This document shows, piece after piece, positions 108 to 7,779 of a stretch of 15,426 nucleotides of DNA. The stretch is taken from the NCBI GenBank assembly GCA_002440235.1, contig DJRZ01000066.1, forward strand, positions 1 to 15,426. The letters run 5' to 3'. Every line of letters begins with the position of its first letter. Within the stretch, counting starts at the first letter, position 1. Source of the stretch: Alphaproteobacteria bacterium UBA6347. GTDB taxonomy: Bacteria > Pseudomonadota > Alphaproteobacteria > CAAGCB01 > CAG-977. Both the position numbers and the translations under genes were made by a program. Below the pieces are notes generated by a model. That model had not been told where the DNA came from and searched no databases. It was given only the letters and a program-made list of their open reading frames with translations.

Positions 108-686
108 TTAACGGTATTCCCATTTAATAAAACCTTCGGTTTTGTTTCCGCATTTACTGATTGCATCTGCAACAGATATGGGAAGTAGATTTGTTTTTTC
201 ACCAGAAGATTCCCACTTAAAAGGTGTGCCATCAGTTTTATCATCGGAGGAGGTTCCGAGCGTTATAGACATCAGTCCAGAAGATTCATCTGATCCCCAT
301 TCGGCGGTCGCAATTTTGACGCACGCTTCCGGAGTTAATTTTGTATAAGCAACAGTGAATGTTCTTCCATCTTGCGCAATGCCAAAAATAATTTTTCCTC
401 CAAACGGGTTAAAACCTGCACCGTCTTTGAACGTTTCATCAGTCAAAATGCCAACGTTGTAAGCTTGTTGAGCAGAAATTTCAGCGTATTTGCGTGACGA
501 CGCGTACAGGGTGCGCATGTTGGTGATGATGGTCTGAACCTGATCCATGGCTTTGGTGACTTTGAATTTCGCCATCGCTTGCGAATATCCCGCGATGCCG
601 CCGACGGACAGAACGCCGATGATCGCCAGAACGCCCAGCATTTCGACCATGGAACGCCCGGATTCCTGTGTGTGATTGAATTTCAT
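108..686 (-). CDS. PilS-like type IV pilin / pseudopilin
   Basis: The gene encodes a 192-residue prepilin-like protein expected to be processed by a prepilin peptidase and assembled into a type IVb-like pilus or pseudopilus. Residues 1-10 are a short leader ending in Gly10. Residues 11-34 are a hydrophobic helix with Glu15 at position +5 after the predicted cleavage site (G10/R11), the hallmark of type IV pilins. The remainder is a globular domain with two cysteines (C122, C179) spaced like the disulfide-closed D-region of PilS-type pilins. The start at 686 is chosen because AAGGGGAA lies 5 nt upstream; the longer frame adds 11 residues with no binding site and breaks the short leader. No assembly genes (ATPase, platform, peptidase) are visible, so this is an isolated pilin gene. 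It is preceded by structured RNA copy 1, which ends in a terminator 23 nt before the start codon, so expression may depend on read-through. The pilin class is confident; the PilS subfamily is less so. Confidence 0.85.
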   Translation of the reverse strand: MKFNHTQESGRSMVEMLGVLAIIGVLSVGGIAGYSQAMAKFKVTKAMDQVQTIITNMRTLYASSRKYAEISAQQAYNVGILTDETFKDGAGFNPFGGKIIFGIAQDGRTFTVAYTKLTPEACVKIATAEWGSDESSGLMSITLGTSSDDKTDGTPFKWESSGEKTNLLPISVADAISKCGNKTEGFIKWEYR

Positions 687-708
687 TTCAATTCCCCTTG
701 TGTTTAAC

Positions 709-737
709 AAAAAAAACAAACCGCCTTTTGAGCGGTT
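709..737 (-). terminator. Intrinsic terminator closing structured RNA copy 1, ahead of the pilin
   Basis: Minus strand: AACCGC (737-732) and GCGGTT (724-719) pair around a 7-nt loop, followed by TG and eight T. It lies only 23 nt before the pilin start codon. It either ends a free-standing small RNA or acts as an attenuator for the pilin gene. The preceding block AACTCCCCGA (746-737) is shared with copy 2 and overlaps the first arm. Confidence 0.75.
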
Positions 738-996
738 CGGGGAGTTCGTAAATCAATTCTTGTGATGATTCTTTTGACCTTTAACTGTCCCGTTTTTTCA
801 AGGATAAGGACGGGTACATTCTGGACATACGCCAAAAGCTCCCCAAACCCTTGTTAAAGATTCGGGGATATGTCCCGTTTCGGCGAAACCGCGAAACGGT
901 TTTAACGACGCGTCGCCGCGCCGACAAGAATAGAGCCTACGACAGCCCCGTGCCCGTTCAAGGCACTTGTTCGTTCGAAACCAATCGAACAAACCA
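709..996 (-). ncRNA. Structured RNA, unknown family, copy 1 (upstream of pilin)
   Basis: This stretch of about 288 nt has no credible reading frame and is homologous to the stretch at 2869-3141. In 5'-3' order on the minus strand I see these stems: GTTCGA/TCGAAC (990-985 with 978-973); GTGCC/GGCAC (966-962 with 954-950); GGCGCG/CGCGTC closed by a GCGA tetraloop (922-917 with 912-907); CCGTTTCG/CGAAACGG (899-892 with 882-875); CCCCGAA/TTTGGGG (867-861 with 847-841). Then come the invariant block TTTTGGCGTATGT (837-825), a stem CCCGT/ACGGG (814-810 with 793-789), the invariant block TTAAAGGTCAAA (784-773), a weak AATC/GATT hairpin, and AACTCCCCGA (746-737) leading into a terminator. GGGGAG next to the fifth stem could instead pair with CTCCCC near the end. 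A promoter fits just upstream. The order of stems matches copy 2 while arm sequences differ, which is the signature of a conserved RNA fold. Function and family name are unknown to me: it could be a small RNA or a cis-acting leader. Confidence 0.7.
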
Positions 997-1002
997 ATTA
1001 TC

Positions 1003-1030
1003 AGCATAGCATAATCCCGAAATACGGCAA
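1003..1030 (-). promoter_or_regulatory. Promoter for structured RNA copy 1
   Basis: Minus strand: TTGCCG (1030-1025), a 16-nt spacer and TATGCT (1008-1003), with TG one base before the -10 box (extended -10). Transcription would begin near 996, just before the first hairpin of the RNA. The match is moderate and found by eye. Confidence 0.5.
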
Positions 1031-2833: not shown

Positions 2834-2862
2834 TTGCGCCGCTTGTCAAAGCCTCTTATCCT
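2834..2862 (+). promoter_or_regulatory. Possible promoter for structured RNA copy 2 and the R-M operon
   Basis: TTGCGC (2834-2839), a 17-nt spacer and TATCCT (2857-2862). This would place the start point near 2869, immediately before the first hairpin of the RNA. The -35 match is weak. The -10 TATCCT recurs in a better promoter at 14697-14725. Confidence 0.35.
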
Positions 2863-2868
2863 ATAAAC

Positions 2869-3141
2869 CGTCGCGGGCAGATGGTCTGTTTGCGACAGTG
2901 CCTGAAAAAGAGGCGCGGAGCTGTGAGAAGCTTTTTACATCAGCGGTGTTTGATATAAACGCCGACAACCCGTTTCGTATGATGCGGAACGGAATTATAT
3001 CCCCGATTTTTTTACGGATCGGGGAGGTTTTGGCGTATGTTCAGAAGCCCCGATTTAAATCGGTCGGCTTTAAAGGTCAAACAGTCATTCTGATGTATGA
3101 TTTCTCAACTCCCCGAGCCGCTTGACAGGCGGTTCACGGGG
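2869..3141 (+). ncRNA. Structured RNA, unknown family, copy 2 (leader of the R-M operon)
   Basis: Diverged homologue of the RNA at 996-709 on the other strand. Stems in order: GTCGC/GCGAC (2870-2874 with 2892-2896); GTGCCT/AGGCGC (2898-2903 with 2911-2916); GGTGTTT/AAACGCC (2945-2951 with 2957-2963); CCGTTTC/GGAACGG (2970-2976 with 2986-2992); CCCCGAT/ATCGGGG (3001-3007 with 3018-3024). The invariant TTTTGGCGTATGT follows at 3028-3040, then CCGAT/ATCGG (3050-3054 with 3059-3063), the invariant TTAAAGGTCAAA at 3070-3081, an AGTCAT/ATGATT hairpin, AACTCCCCGA at 3107-3116, and a final hairpin AGCCGC/GCGGTT (3116-3121 with 3129-3134). Unlike copy 1 there is no T run after the last hairpin. Instead CCCCG (3111-3115) can extend the stem by pairing with CGGGG (3137-3141), the ribosome binding site of the methyltransferase gene. 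GGGGAG (3021-3026) competes for the same CTCCCC, so two exclusive folds can be drawn. A regulatory leader is the favoured reading; the ligand or signal is unknown. Confidence 0.7.
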
Positions 3142-3143
3142 AA
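3111..3143 (+). promoter_or_regulatory. Hairpin sequestering the methyltransferase ribosome binding site
   Basis: CCCCG (3111-3115) pairs with CGGGG (3137-3141), continuous with the AGCCGC/GCGGTT stem and interrupted only by a two-base bulge. The G run at 3138-3141, 8 nt before the ATG, is the only Shine-Dalgarno-like sequence for the methyltransferase. The fold would therefore hide it. This follows from pairing alone and has not been modelled energetically. Confidence 0.5.
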
Positions 3144-3149
3144 TTTTTT

Positions 3150-4220
3150 ATGGCGAACGAAAAACTTCATCATGCCAAAGCCGCCAAAAACGATGAATTT
3201 TATACGCAATATGCCGATATTCAGCGGGAAATGAACGCCTATCTGGACTTTAATCCGAATGTCTTTCGCGACAAAACGATTCTGTTGCCTTGCGACGATC
3301 CGGAATGGAGCAATTTTACAAAGTTTTTTGCCCAAAATTTCGAGGCGTTCGGATTAAAAAAGCTTATCAGTACCAGTTTTGCCGCCGGAAGCAAATCATA
3401 CAAAACCGATTGGCAGCCGACTTTGTTTGAACGTCAAAATCCAGCTTTTGATGTCGATAAAACAAGAATTAAGGGGAAGATTTTTACTTTGACGCGCGGT
3501 GAAAGCGCAAAAGCGGATATTAACGCCTTGAAATGGCGGTATTTGGACGGGGACGGCGATTTTCGCAGCGCGGAAGTGACAGAATTGCGCGATGAAGCGG
3601 ATATCATCGTCACCAATCCGCCGTTTTCTTTGTTTCGGCGGTTTTTGGAATGGATTATGACGGCGCGGAAAGGCTTTGCCGTGATCGCCAATCAAAATTC
3701 CGTTACATACAAAGAAGTTTTCCCGTTGATTAAAAACAATGAAATCTGGTTTGGAAAAGGATTCGCTGGCGGTGCTTCGCATTTTATCAGCAATTATCAA
3801 GATTATGCGGCGGCAAGCGATCACAAAGACGGAATGATTCGCGTGTCAGGTATTATTTGGCTGACCAATCTTGACCACGGCAGGCGTCATCAGCCTTTAA
3901 CGCTGATGACAACGGCGGATAACCTGAAATACAGCAAACACAAGGAAATTCGGGAAACGGGGTATCGAAAATACGACAACTACGACGCAATCGAGGTGCC
4001 GTTCACCGATTCCGTTCCGTCCGATTATAGGGGCGCGATGGGTGTCCCGATCAGTTTTTTGGATAAATACAATCCCGAACAATTCGAAATCATCGGCGCG
4101 ACCGAAAGCGAGGGCGTCGGCTTTTCAAACGGATTGTGGAAAGCGGAAAGCCGCGTCGCGCAACCTTTGGTGAACGGCGTTAGAAAATACAAAAGAATTT
4201 TTATCAGGCAAAGAGGGTGA
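3150..4220 (+). CDS. EcoRI-family adenine-specific DNA methyltransferase
   Basis: The gene encodes 356 residues and should transfer a methyl group from S-adenosylmethionine to adenine N6 in a specific DNA sequence. Recognisable features are the N-terminal KNDEFYTQ (13-20), a cofactor-site strand [13 protein letters not shown] (44-56), which replaces the usual FxGxG motif in the EcoRI methylase group, and the catalytic NPPF (156-159). Length and motif order fit the M.EcoRI group. The ATG at 3150 is preceded by CGGGGAA, which is part of the structured RNA leader. The next gene, a DUF262-HNH protein, begins 1 nt after the stop codon, so the two form an operon. This pairing suggests a restriction-modification or related defence unit in which this enzyme protects the host DNA. 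GC is visibly lower than in parE or serA, consistent with horizontal acquisition. Sequence specificity cannot be deduced. Confidence 0.92.
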
Positions 4221-4221
4221 A

Positions 4222-5382
4222 ATGAAAACGATACTGAAACAAATAGCCGTGTCCGATTTATGCAAAGGCTTTGTCTATAACGAATTGGAGGGCAAGGGCT
4301 TGTTCGGTTTGGACGGGCGGTTGACGATTCAGCCCGAATATCAGCGCAATTACATTTACGCCGACGGCAAAAAAGATGTCGCCGTGATCGATTCAATGAC
4401 GAAGGGCTATCCCTTGGGATTGATTTATTTCAACAAAACGGGGGAGGATACTTATGAAGTCCTTGACGGACAGCAGAGAATTACAAGCATCGGACGTTTT
4501 TTGACAAACCGTTTCGCTGTCAAAGACCGTAACGGTATGGAGCAGTACTTTGACGGACTGAACTTTGAAACGCAAAAGAAGATTTTGAATACGGCGTTGC
4601 TGGTGTATGTGTGTTCGGGGACGGAAACGGAAATCAAAGAATGGTTTAAAACAATCAATATCGCGGGCGTTCCGCTGAATAATCAAGAATTGCTGAACGC
4701 CGTTTATTCCGGACCGTTTGTTACATCGGCAAAACAGGAGTTTAGCAATTCCCAAAATTCCAATGTCCAAAAATGGAGCGCATACATCAACGGGGCGGTC
4801 AACAGGCAGGATTATCTGGAACGCGCTTTGGATTGGGTCAGCCGCGGCAATATTTCAAGCTATATGTCGGCGCATCGGCAAGATTTGGAGATAACGGAAC
4901 TGAAAACGTATTTCAACAGCGTCATAGATTGGGTGTCCGCCGTTTTTATTGATGTTGAAAACGAAATGCGCGGTTTGGAATGGGGGCGGCTGTACGAACG
5001 GTATCACGCAACGCCCTATAGCCCGCAAAAGGTTTCCGAACGGGTGAACGCTTTGTTTTCCGATCCGTTCGTGACGAATAAAAGAGGAGTGTTTGAATAT
5101 ATATTGGGCGGGGAAAAGGATACAAAGCTTTTGCATATCCGTGTTTTCGACGAAGCGACCAAACGAACCGTTTATGCCAGCCAAACGGAAAAAGCCAAGC
5201 AAAAAGGCGTTTCCAACTGTCCTCTTTGCGCTGTTGGCGACAATGCAAACAAAACAAAAATCTGGAAGTTGTCCGAAATGGATGCCGATCATGTCAAAGC
5301 ATGGAGCAAGGACGGCGCAACGCGTATCGAAAACTGCGAAATGCTGTGTAAAACGCATAACCGCGCCAAAGGAAACGCCTGA
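4222..5382 (+). CDS. DUF262 (GmrSD N-terminal-like) plus HNH nuclease
   Basis: The gene encodes 386 residues. The N-terminal domain contains QPEYQR (37-42) and the signature DGQQR (82-86) of DUF262, a ParB-like fold. In GmrSD-type enzymes this domain is linked to nucleotide hydrolysis and control of cleavage. The C-terminal domain is an HNH endonuclease with a zinc knuckle CPLC (333-336), ADH with H357, N371, and CKTHNRAKG with H379/N380. The middle (about 130-300) is helical and carries no motif I know. The probable role is DNA cleavage as the restriction partner of the preceding methyltransferase. It lacks the separate DUF1524 nuclease domain typical of GmrD, so it is a related but different architecture. 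The start is supported by GAGGG 3 nt before the preceding stop, overlapping the methyltransferase end, which implies translational coupling. All visible HNH residues are intact, so I expect an active enzyme. Confidence 0.9.

Positions 5383-5784: not shown

Positions 5785-7779
<1,995 letters not shown>

Follow-up and report, generated by a model that had tools for sequence, protein, structure and literature searches.

The only known family to which the RNA described here is tied is sRNA-Xcc1 (RF02221), which the title of a 2011 paper reportedly terms trans-acting. The tie consists of sub-threshold matches of two remote relatives rather than of the copies in the window: in Rfam scans of 18 further loci at E up to 0.1, the RF02221 model matched the RNA in two of them (L184 and L192) with 36.2 and 32.5 bits, over the 3' half of the RNA and against a cut-off of 53. 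In an excerpt of PMC2996969, sRNA-Xcc1 is an RNA of about 100 nt found by Northern analysis and end mapping, and in an excerpt of PMC12444791 the most widespread integron cassette of Xanthomonas bears this RNA 5' of symE.

The window, which is the whole 15,426-nt stretch of DNA analysed here from Alphaproteobacteria bacterium UBA6347, contains two copies of a folded, uncatalogued RNA of roughly 250 letters (Table 1). Predicted folding energies were -116.5 kcal/mol (z -6.4, positions 701-1000) for copy 1 and -121 kcal/mol (z -6.7, positions 2865-3150) for copy 2, and 0 of 200 dinucleotide shuffles were equally stable in either case. The exact blocks TTTTGGCGTATGT, TTAAAGGTCAAA and AACTCCCCGA, which a first-pass annotation had noted as common to both copies, were present in both sequences, and the stems that it listed could be drawn in both. 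The stem GGTGTTT/AAACGCC was a partial exception in that the minimum-energy fold of copy 2 placed the AAACGCC strand elsewhere, while the corresponding helix, H3, was paired in 97.1% of cells in an alignment of 63 copies. No match to either copy was found in an Rfam scan at E up to 1, in agreement with the earlier failure to assign the RNA to tmRNA, 6S, RNase P, SRP RNA or a common riboswitch class, and the best match at E up to 10 was 16.4 bits (E 0.93), far below the cut-off. Membership in a known Rfam family was ruled out for the window RNA by this absence of matches, and chance similarity or coding sequence by the z-scores of the folds together with the covariation described below. Twenty diverged loci likewise gave no match at Rfam gathering cut-offs, and no account of the window RNA was found in the literature among the matches listed.

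Table 1. Positions of the two RNA copies, their elements and the adjoining genes in the window.
Feature	Position	Strand	Detail
Copy 1, model span	715..967	-	183.2 bits; copy itself among the model's building sequences
Copy 2, model span	2897..3138	+	197.1 bits; copy itself among the model's building sequences
Copy 1 promoter-like TTGCCG (1030-1025) / TATGCT (1008-1003)	1003..1030	-	8/12 matches; weak
Copy 2 promoter-like TTGCGC / TATCCT	2834..2862	+	7/12 matches; weak
Copy 1 hairpin H2; loop strand TCGTA (942-938) as PK1 5' side	932..949	-	From sequence; complementary run of 5 with PK3
Copy 2 hairpin H2; TGAGAA (2924-2929) as PK1 5' side	2917..2933	+	
Copy 1 strand X' (ATCCCCGA)	862..869	-	From sequence; hairpin H5 in folds
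Copy 2 strand X' (ATCCCCGA)	2999..3006	+	
Copy 1 strand X (TTGGGGAG); X' or X'' as possible partner	839..846	-	
Copy 2 strand X (TCGGGGAG)	3019..3026	+	
Copy 1 H6 domain, conserved GGCGTATGTCCAGAA ... TTAAAGG	771..838	-	
Copy 2 H6 domain	3027..3082	+	
Copy 1 PK3 strand TACGA, PK1 3' side	746..750	-	
Copy 2 PK3 (TTCTCA)	3102..3107	+	
Copy 1 strand X'' (CTCCCCGA)	737..744	-	
Copy 2 strand X'' (CTCCCCGA)	3109..3116	+	
Copy 1 terminator-like hairpin and T run	709..739	-	
Copy 2 hairpin CCCCG..CGGGG with T run	3111..3149	+	
Shine-Dalgarno GGGGA of pilin-like gene	693..697	-	Complementary to copy 1 X''
Pilin-like gene (ATG 686-684), 3' of copy 1	108..686	-	PilS and Bundlin (Pfam)
EcoRI-like adenine DNA methyltransferase, 3' of copy 2	3150..4220	+	PF13651, E 4.6e-115
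GmrSD_N/HNH protein, immediately after the methyltransferase	4222..5382	+	

Each copy lies directly 5' of a co-directional gene, as first annotated (a pilin-like gene on the minus strand and a DNA methyltransferase gene on the plus strand), and in both the 3' end of the RNA is a terminator-like hairpin immediately ahead of the gene. In copy 2, GGGGA at 3138-3142, which is part of the 3' arm of the CCCCG..CGGGG hairpin, is likely to be the Shine-Dalgarno sequence. The gene that precedes copy 2 encodes a TRL-like lipoprotein, and the GmrSD_N/HNH protein is possibly the restriction partner of the methyltransferase. A topoisomerase-subunit-like protein of the window (5785-7779, minus strand) was 93% identical to its counterparts in genomes G005 (which carries locus L005) and G001; the kin of the window are metagenome-assembled genomes (MAGs) of rumen and gut Alphaproteobacteria.

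The first-pass annotation had proposed a covariance-model search for homologues, and many were found in related genomes. The exact two-block pattern occurred in seven stretches from six genomes (MAGs of Alphaproteobacteria) and was absent from the virus collection, in which a looser pattern gave 51 stretches, some of them mutually identical among the 12 that matched model R2 below E 1e-6. Within the order of the window, 11 of 12 genomes had matches at E up to 0.001 to a covariance model built from nine sequences, both window copies among them (R1), with up to 17 per genome; under strict filters, so did 25 of 385 genomes across the class. A second model, built from 63 copies aligned by sequence alone (R2), matched 11 of 398 genomes at the level of the phylum. 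In three further orders it matched 5 of 40, 33 of 34 and 34 of 41 genomes, and single genomes of the latter two orders held as many as 14 and 27 matches; all of these genome totals take in weak, partial and interrupted copies. The RNA also occurred sporadically in free-living Alphaproteobacteria, plasmids and viral contigs. A related copy from genome G619, used as a DNA query, matched 275 plasmid records, 74 of which contained at least 80% of the query; 182 of the 275 were from Agrobacterium or Rhizobium and 231 were typed as conjugative, and R2 matched all four of four plasmid stretches similar to the G619 copy. These findings indicate that the RNA is a real and widespread family, without an Rfam match in the window, and that it is multicopy per genome in some host-associated bacteria.

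Selection for an RNA fold, which had been proposed from paired changes between the two window copies, was supported by the 63-sequence alignment. The drawn structure was paired in 84.4% of cells as opposed to 75.4% after shuffling, changes on both sides of a pair numbered 373 against a shuffled mean of 115, and none of 500 shuffles attained any of five measures, although these shuffles, like the permutations below, ignore kinship among copies. Sliding the partner by one column reduced pairing to 50-53%. Helix H7 was paired in 11.9% of cells as first drawn and in 93.9% when redrawn from another reference copy. The most informative helix was one missing from the earlier list, PK1, which joins the H2 loop (e.g., GTCAGAA) to TTCTGA immediately 5' of the 3' CTCCCCGA (TACGA and TTCTCA in the window copies). 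In 63 copies PK1 was paired in 95.2% of cells, with changes on both sides in five of six pairs and with CG, GC, AU and UA all seen at one column pair. Single-sequence folds (including minimum-energy folds) and consensus folds give PK1 as an ordinary closing stem. The stem of H2, inside which the 5' strand of PK1 lies, is likewise paired (83.0% of cells, with both-side changes in four of five pairs), so that the two together would form a pseudoknot.

Permutation experiments were performed with those 94 of 119 distinct copies (121 matches minus two duplicates) that had a start codon within 45 nt. A complementary run of at least five bases between the H2 region and PK3 was found in 90 of the 94, with a mean of 6.44 for own partners and 3.89 for permuted partners (0/5000), bearing in mind that R1, the source of the 119 copies, may be biased towards PK1 through a nested stem that covers most of its pairs and that R2 and RF02221 do not have. 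Strand X was complementary to both X' and X'', and X'' in many copies was complementary to the Shine-Dalgarno region or formed the base of a terminator. By columns, X:X'' was paired in 96.3% of cells with 21 both-side cells against 5.9, a test that is weak alone because a slide of three columns still gives 17. By energy, own X:X'' partners gave -20.45 kcal/mol and permuted partners -17.18 (0/5000), and own X'':Shine-Dalgarno partners gave -8.70 and permuted partners -7.85 (0/5000, and again 0/5000 in a run-length version), the latter match being partly automatic because Shine-Dalgarno sequences are purine-rich. Among 40 additional loci that lie outside R1 and R2, 28 were parsed and 12 were dropped where the motif finder was unsuccessful; in the 28, H2:PK3 (0/5000) and X:X'' (1/5000) pairings were again noted, and X'':Shine-Dalgarno pairing was not above permuted (306/5000). 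Co-change of all three elements was seen in L121 and L122 (X TCGGGGTG, X'' CACCCCGA, site GGAGTG) and in L083 (X TCGGGGAA, X'' TTCCCCGA, site GGGAATT). X and X'' would each have mutually exclusive partners, as in an expression platform.

The reading preferred here, with a probability of roughly 0.7, is that the RNA is the 5' leader of the next gene and a cis-acting conformational switch. The fold, the PK1 and X:X'' pairings, the position, the complementarities and the types of gene, all read from sequence comparison, point to this reading. The leader would comprise H1, H2 (the loop of which would span the RNA), variable hairpins, the X':X hairpin, the conserved H6 domain and H7, followed by a 3' switch strand made up of PK3 and X''. 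In the state that is presumably ON, the upstream domain would bind the switch strand (H2 loop to PK3 and X to X''), leaving the Shine-Dalgarno sequence and the terminator arm free, and in the OFF state X'' would pair with the Shine-Dalgarno sequence or form the base of the terminator. PK1 would coexist with the H2 stem, the two states would interchange in cells, and a signal (a metabolite, a protein or the state of translation) would be sensed, most likely by H6. The H6 motif is missing from a subfamily of copies (L057, L058, L064, L087, L089 and L146), three of which (L058, L089 and L146), among the five with a visible downstream gene, precede one lipoprotein-like family.

A leader of the same position could also be static, its stable fold and terminator holding accessory genes at a low and unvarying level of expression. 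The X':X hairpin, paired in 96.8% of cells (63 copies), and terminator-like hairpins, which were common among copies, are as such a leader would have them. A static element would not readily account for co-changing, mutually exclusive X and X'' partners or for the strong conservation of the H6 motif, and is considered unlikely.

The association of the RNA with the gene that follows was evident from start sites. A same-strand reading frame of at least 50 codons followed 113 of the 119 copies and began within 40 nt in 92, but because a search for frames succeeds almost everywhere, a stricter count was made. An ATG with a good Shine-Dalgarno sequence lay within 40 nt of the 3' end of the RNA in 80 of 119 copies. 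The controls gave 0 of 119 when the count ran away from the 5' end along the opposite strand, and 33 of 996 at positions picked at random in these loci. This placement would be that of the 5' leader of a regulated gene. Of the 113 downstream proteins, 108 were scanned; two were left out because they lay past an interrupted copy and three because their starts were distant and doubtful, and other distant starts were retained. These proteins were frequently methyltransferases, glycosyltransferases, pilins or lipoproteins. Among the best 25 of 65 Pfam families were EcoRI-type methylase (7), family 2 glycosyltransferase (6), PEGA (6), acyltransferase (5), Eco57I (4), PilS (4) and outer-membrane or surface-antigen families (3 each). 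Upstream controls (105 frames, taken as the longest open stretch in the vicinity and co-directional in 54 cases) gave S1, LpxC, TruB, adenylosuccinate lyase and others, and none of the named downstream families (EcoRI-type methylase, PilS, PEGA and so on) was in their best 25 of 100. Downstream genes inspected by eye were mostly small proteins with signal-peptide-like starts in the reduced-genome order and included HTH regulators and lipoproteins in free-living genomes. Several contigs from reduced genomes (G834 and G820) stop no more than about 250 bases past a copy (L164, L165, L179, L180 and L182), which suggests downstream genes with repeated or variable starts.

These start sites bear on the possibility that the copies encode stand-alone, trans-acting small RNAs, the CUCCCC strand of which would hit Shine-Dalgarno sequences elsewhere, the next gene being a mere neighbour. 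Terminator-like ends, an anti-Shine-Dalgarno strand, promoter-like sequences, albeit weak (mean best score 8.0 for the 119 copies as opposed to 7.0 for simple shuffles), and the detection of the relative sRNA-Xcc1 as a short RNA in the excerpt of PMC2996969 are consistent with such molecules. Strong start sites adjoin the RNA, unlike the controls, X'' fits the ribosome site of its own gene better than those of others, and the downstream genes are non-random, so that a trans-acting role is thought quite improbable.

On plasmids, the RNA was found 5' of traM, an antiactivator of TraR, in Agrobacterium fabrum pAt3 and 5' of an HTH regulator in Rhizobium etli p42d. According to an excerpt of PMC4201532, the level of TraM protein drops in an A. 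tumefaciens hfq mutant, which would fit post-transcriptional control if that traM copy carries the RNA; traM goes without mention in the excerpt of PMC3738593. In L205, from a Bradyrhizobium japonicum plasmid, an IS630-type transposase gene lies between the RNA and traM.

Foreign DNA split six copies (L005, L050, L063, L071, L056:2706-2893 and L073), always at one of two positions, after CTCCCCGAT or after GGGGAGGTTTT. Recombinase genes lay beyond two of the six, of the Resolvase family in L063 and for a tyrosine integrase (Phage_integrase) in L056, and from these interruptions and recombinase genes the RNA genes seem to be integration targets. That the family is itself a DNA element (a recombination or integration site) and not an RNA, as these interruptions and the mobility of the relative sRNA-Xcc1 in integron cassettes (excerpt of PMC12444791) might be taken to mean, is highly improbable. 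The helices covary and contain G-U pairs, the ends resemble terminators and the place before starts is fixed, all of which are traits of an RNA or leader, and the H2 region:PK3 complementarity noted above likewise speaks against a DNA element. In two copies from different genomes (L055:3252-3480 and L072:1157-1370), the 5' half was swapped for a common unrelated sequence and the 3' half was kept.

Comparison of the switch-leader reading with sRNA-Xcc1 was extended to the flanks of RF02221 loci. RF02221 had matches in 51 of 299 genomes, above the cut-off in 35 of them, and in 0 of 14 control genomes, and a start codon was found at 38 of 40 loci. The loop of an upstream hairpin, outside the Rfam model, matched the strand before X'' with a run of 8.05 as opposed to 4.94 for permuted partners (20 loci, 0/5000) and, in a second set of 20 loci partly from the same genomes, of 6.55 as opposed to 4.67 (0/5000). 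The strand before X'' matched again between X'' and the start codon (6.16 versus 4.33, 0/5000, 19 loci; second set, 4.84 versus 3.94, 1/5000, 19 loci), in some loci adjoining the Shine-Dalgarno sequence; several loci of the second set had neither the upstream-loop match nor the second match. In RF02221 loci, X'' did not pair significantly with the 30 nt that precede the start (2428 and 398 of 5000). In the window family, 240 of 5000 permutations equalled the match of PK3 to a further partner in the interval from X'' to the start codon. In loci such as L208, L216 and L221, a terminator-like hairpin and T run were seen by eye downstream of the pseudoknot hairpin and ahead of the sequence catalogued as sRNA-Xcc1.

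Given a similar long-range pseudoknot 5' of the part modelled in Rfam and the second pairing site near the start of the next gene, sRNA-Xcc1 may well also be a leader. The window RNA is nevertheless not filed under RF02221 and common descent is not proven, since R2 had no correctly placed match in any of 20 RF02221 loci; the remote members fell below 53 bits and the window copies gave no RF02221 match at E up to 10. One further sub-threshold RF02221 match (32.6 bits, G005:C16:25505-25592) lay away from the 17 window-family matches of that genome. Even odds are given to the broader proposal that the window RNA, the plasmid traM leader and sRNA-Xcc1 form one very large, hitherto unrecognised class of pseudoknotted leader switches controlling accessory genes, the catalogued sRNA-Xcc1 being the 3' half of a cis leader. 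If so, a single class would span Proteobacteria, plasmids and phages, with surface structures, DNA modification, transfer control and regulators as targets, and sRNA-Xcc1, mobile in integron cassettes, would gain a testable mechanism. For the window family itself, a large, multicopy structured RNA in most sampled genomes of three orders points to control at the RNA level of surface, restriction-modification and plasmid-transfer genes, and Rhizobium etli p42d offers a culturable test case for identifying the signal.

Compared with RF02221, the window family has in common a closing helix X:X'' of about nine pairs with two hairpins inside, a position 5' of a gene and an upstream hairpin loop complementary to the strand before X'' (PK3), and differs in length (about 250 nt as opposed to 87) and in the apparent partner of the ribosome site, which is X'' in the window family and PK3 in RF02221 loci. 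Riboswitches and other leader switches, as generally understood, resemble the window RNA in being 5' leaders with a conserved core, mutually exclusive pairings, a terminator or masked ribosome site and several copies per genome. The genes are different, in that riboswitches precede those of metabolic pathways whereas the window RNA precedes surface, glycan and DNA-modification genes.
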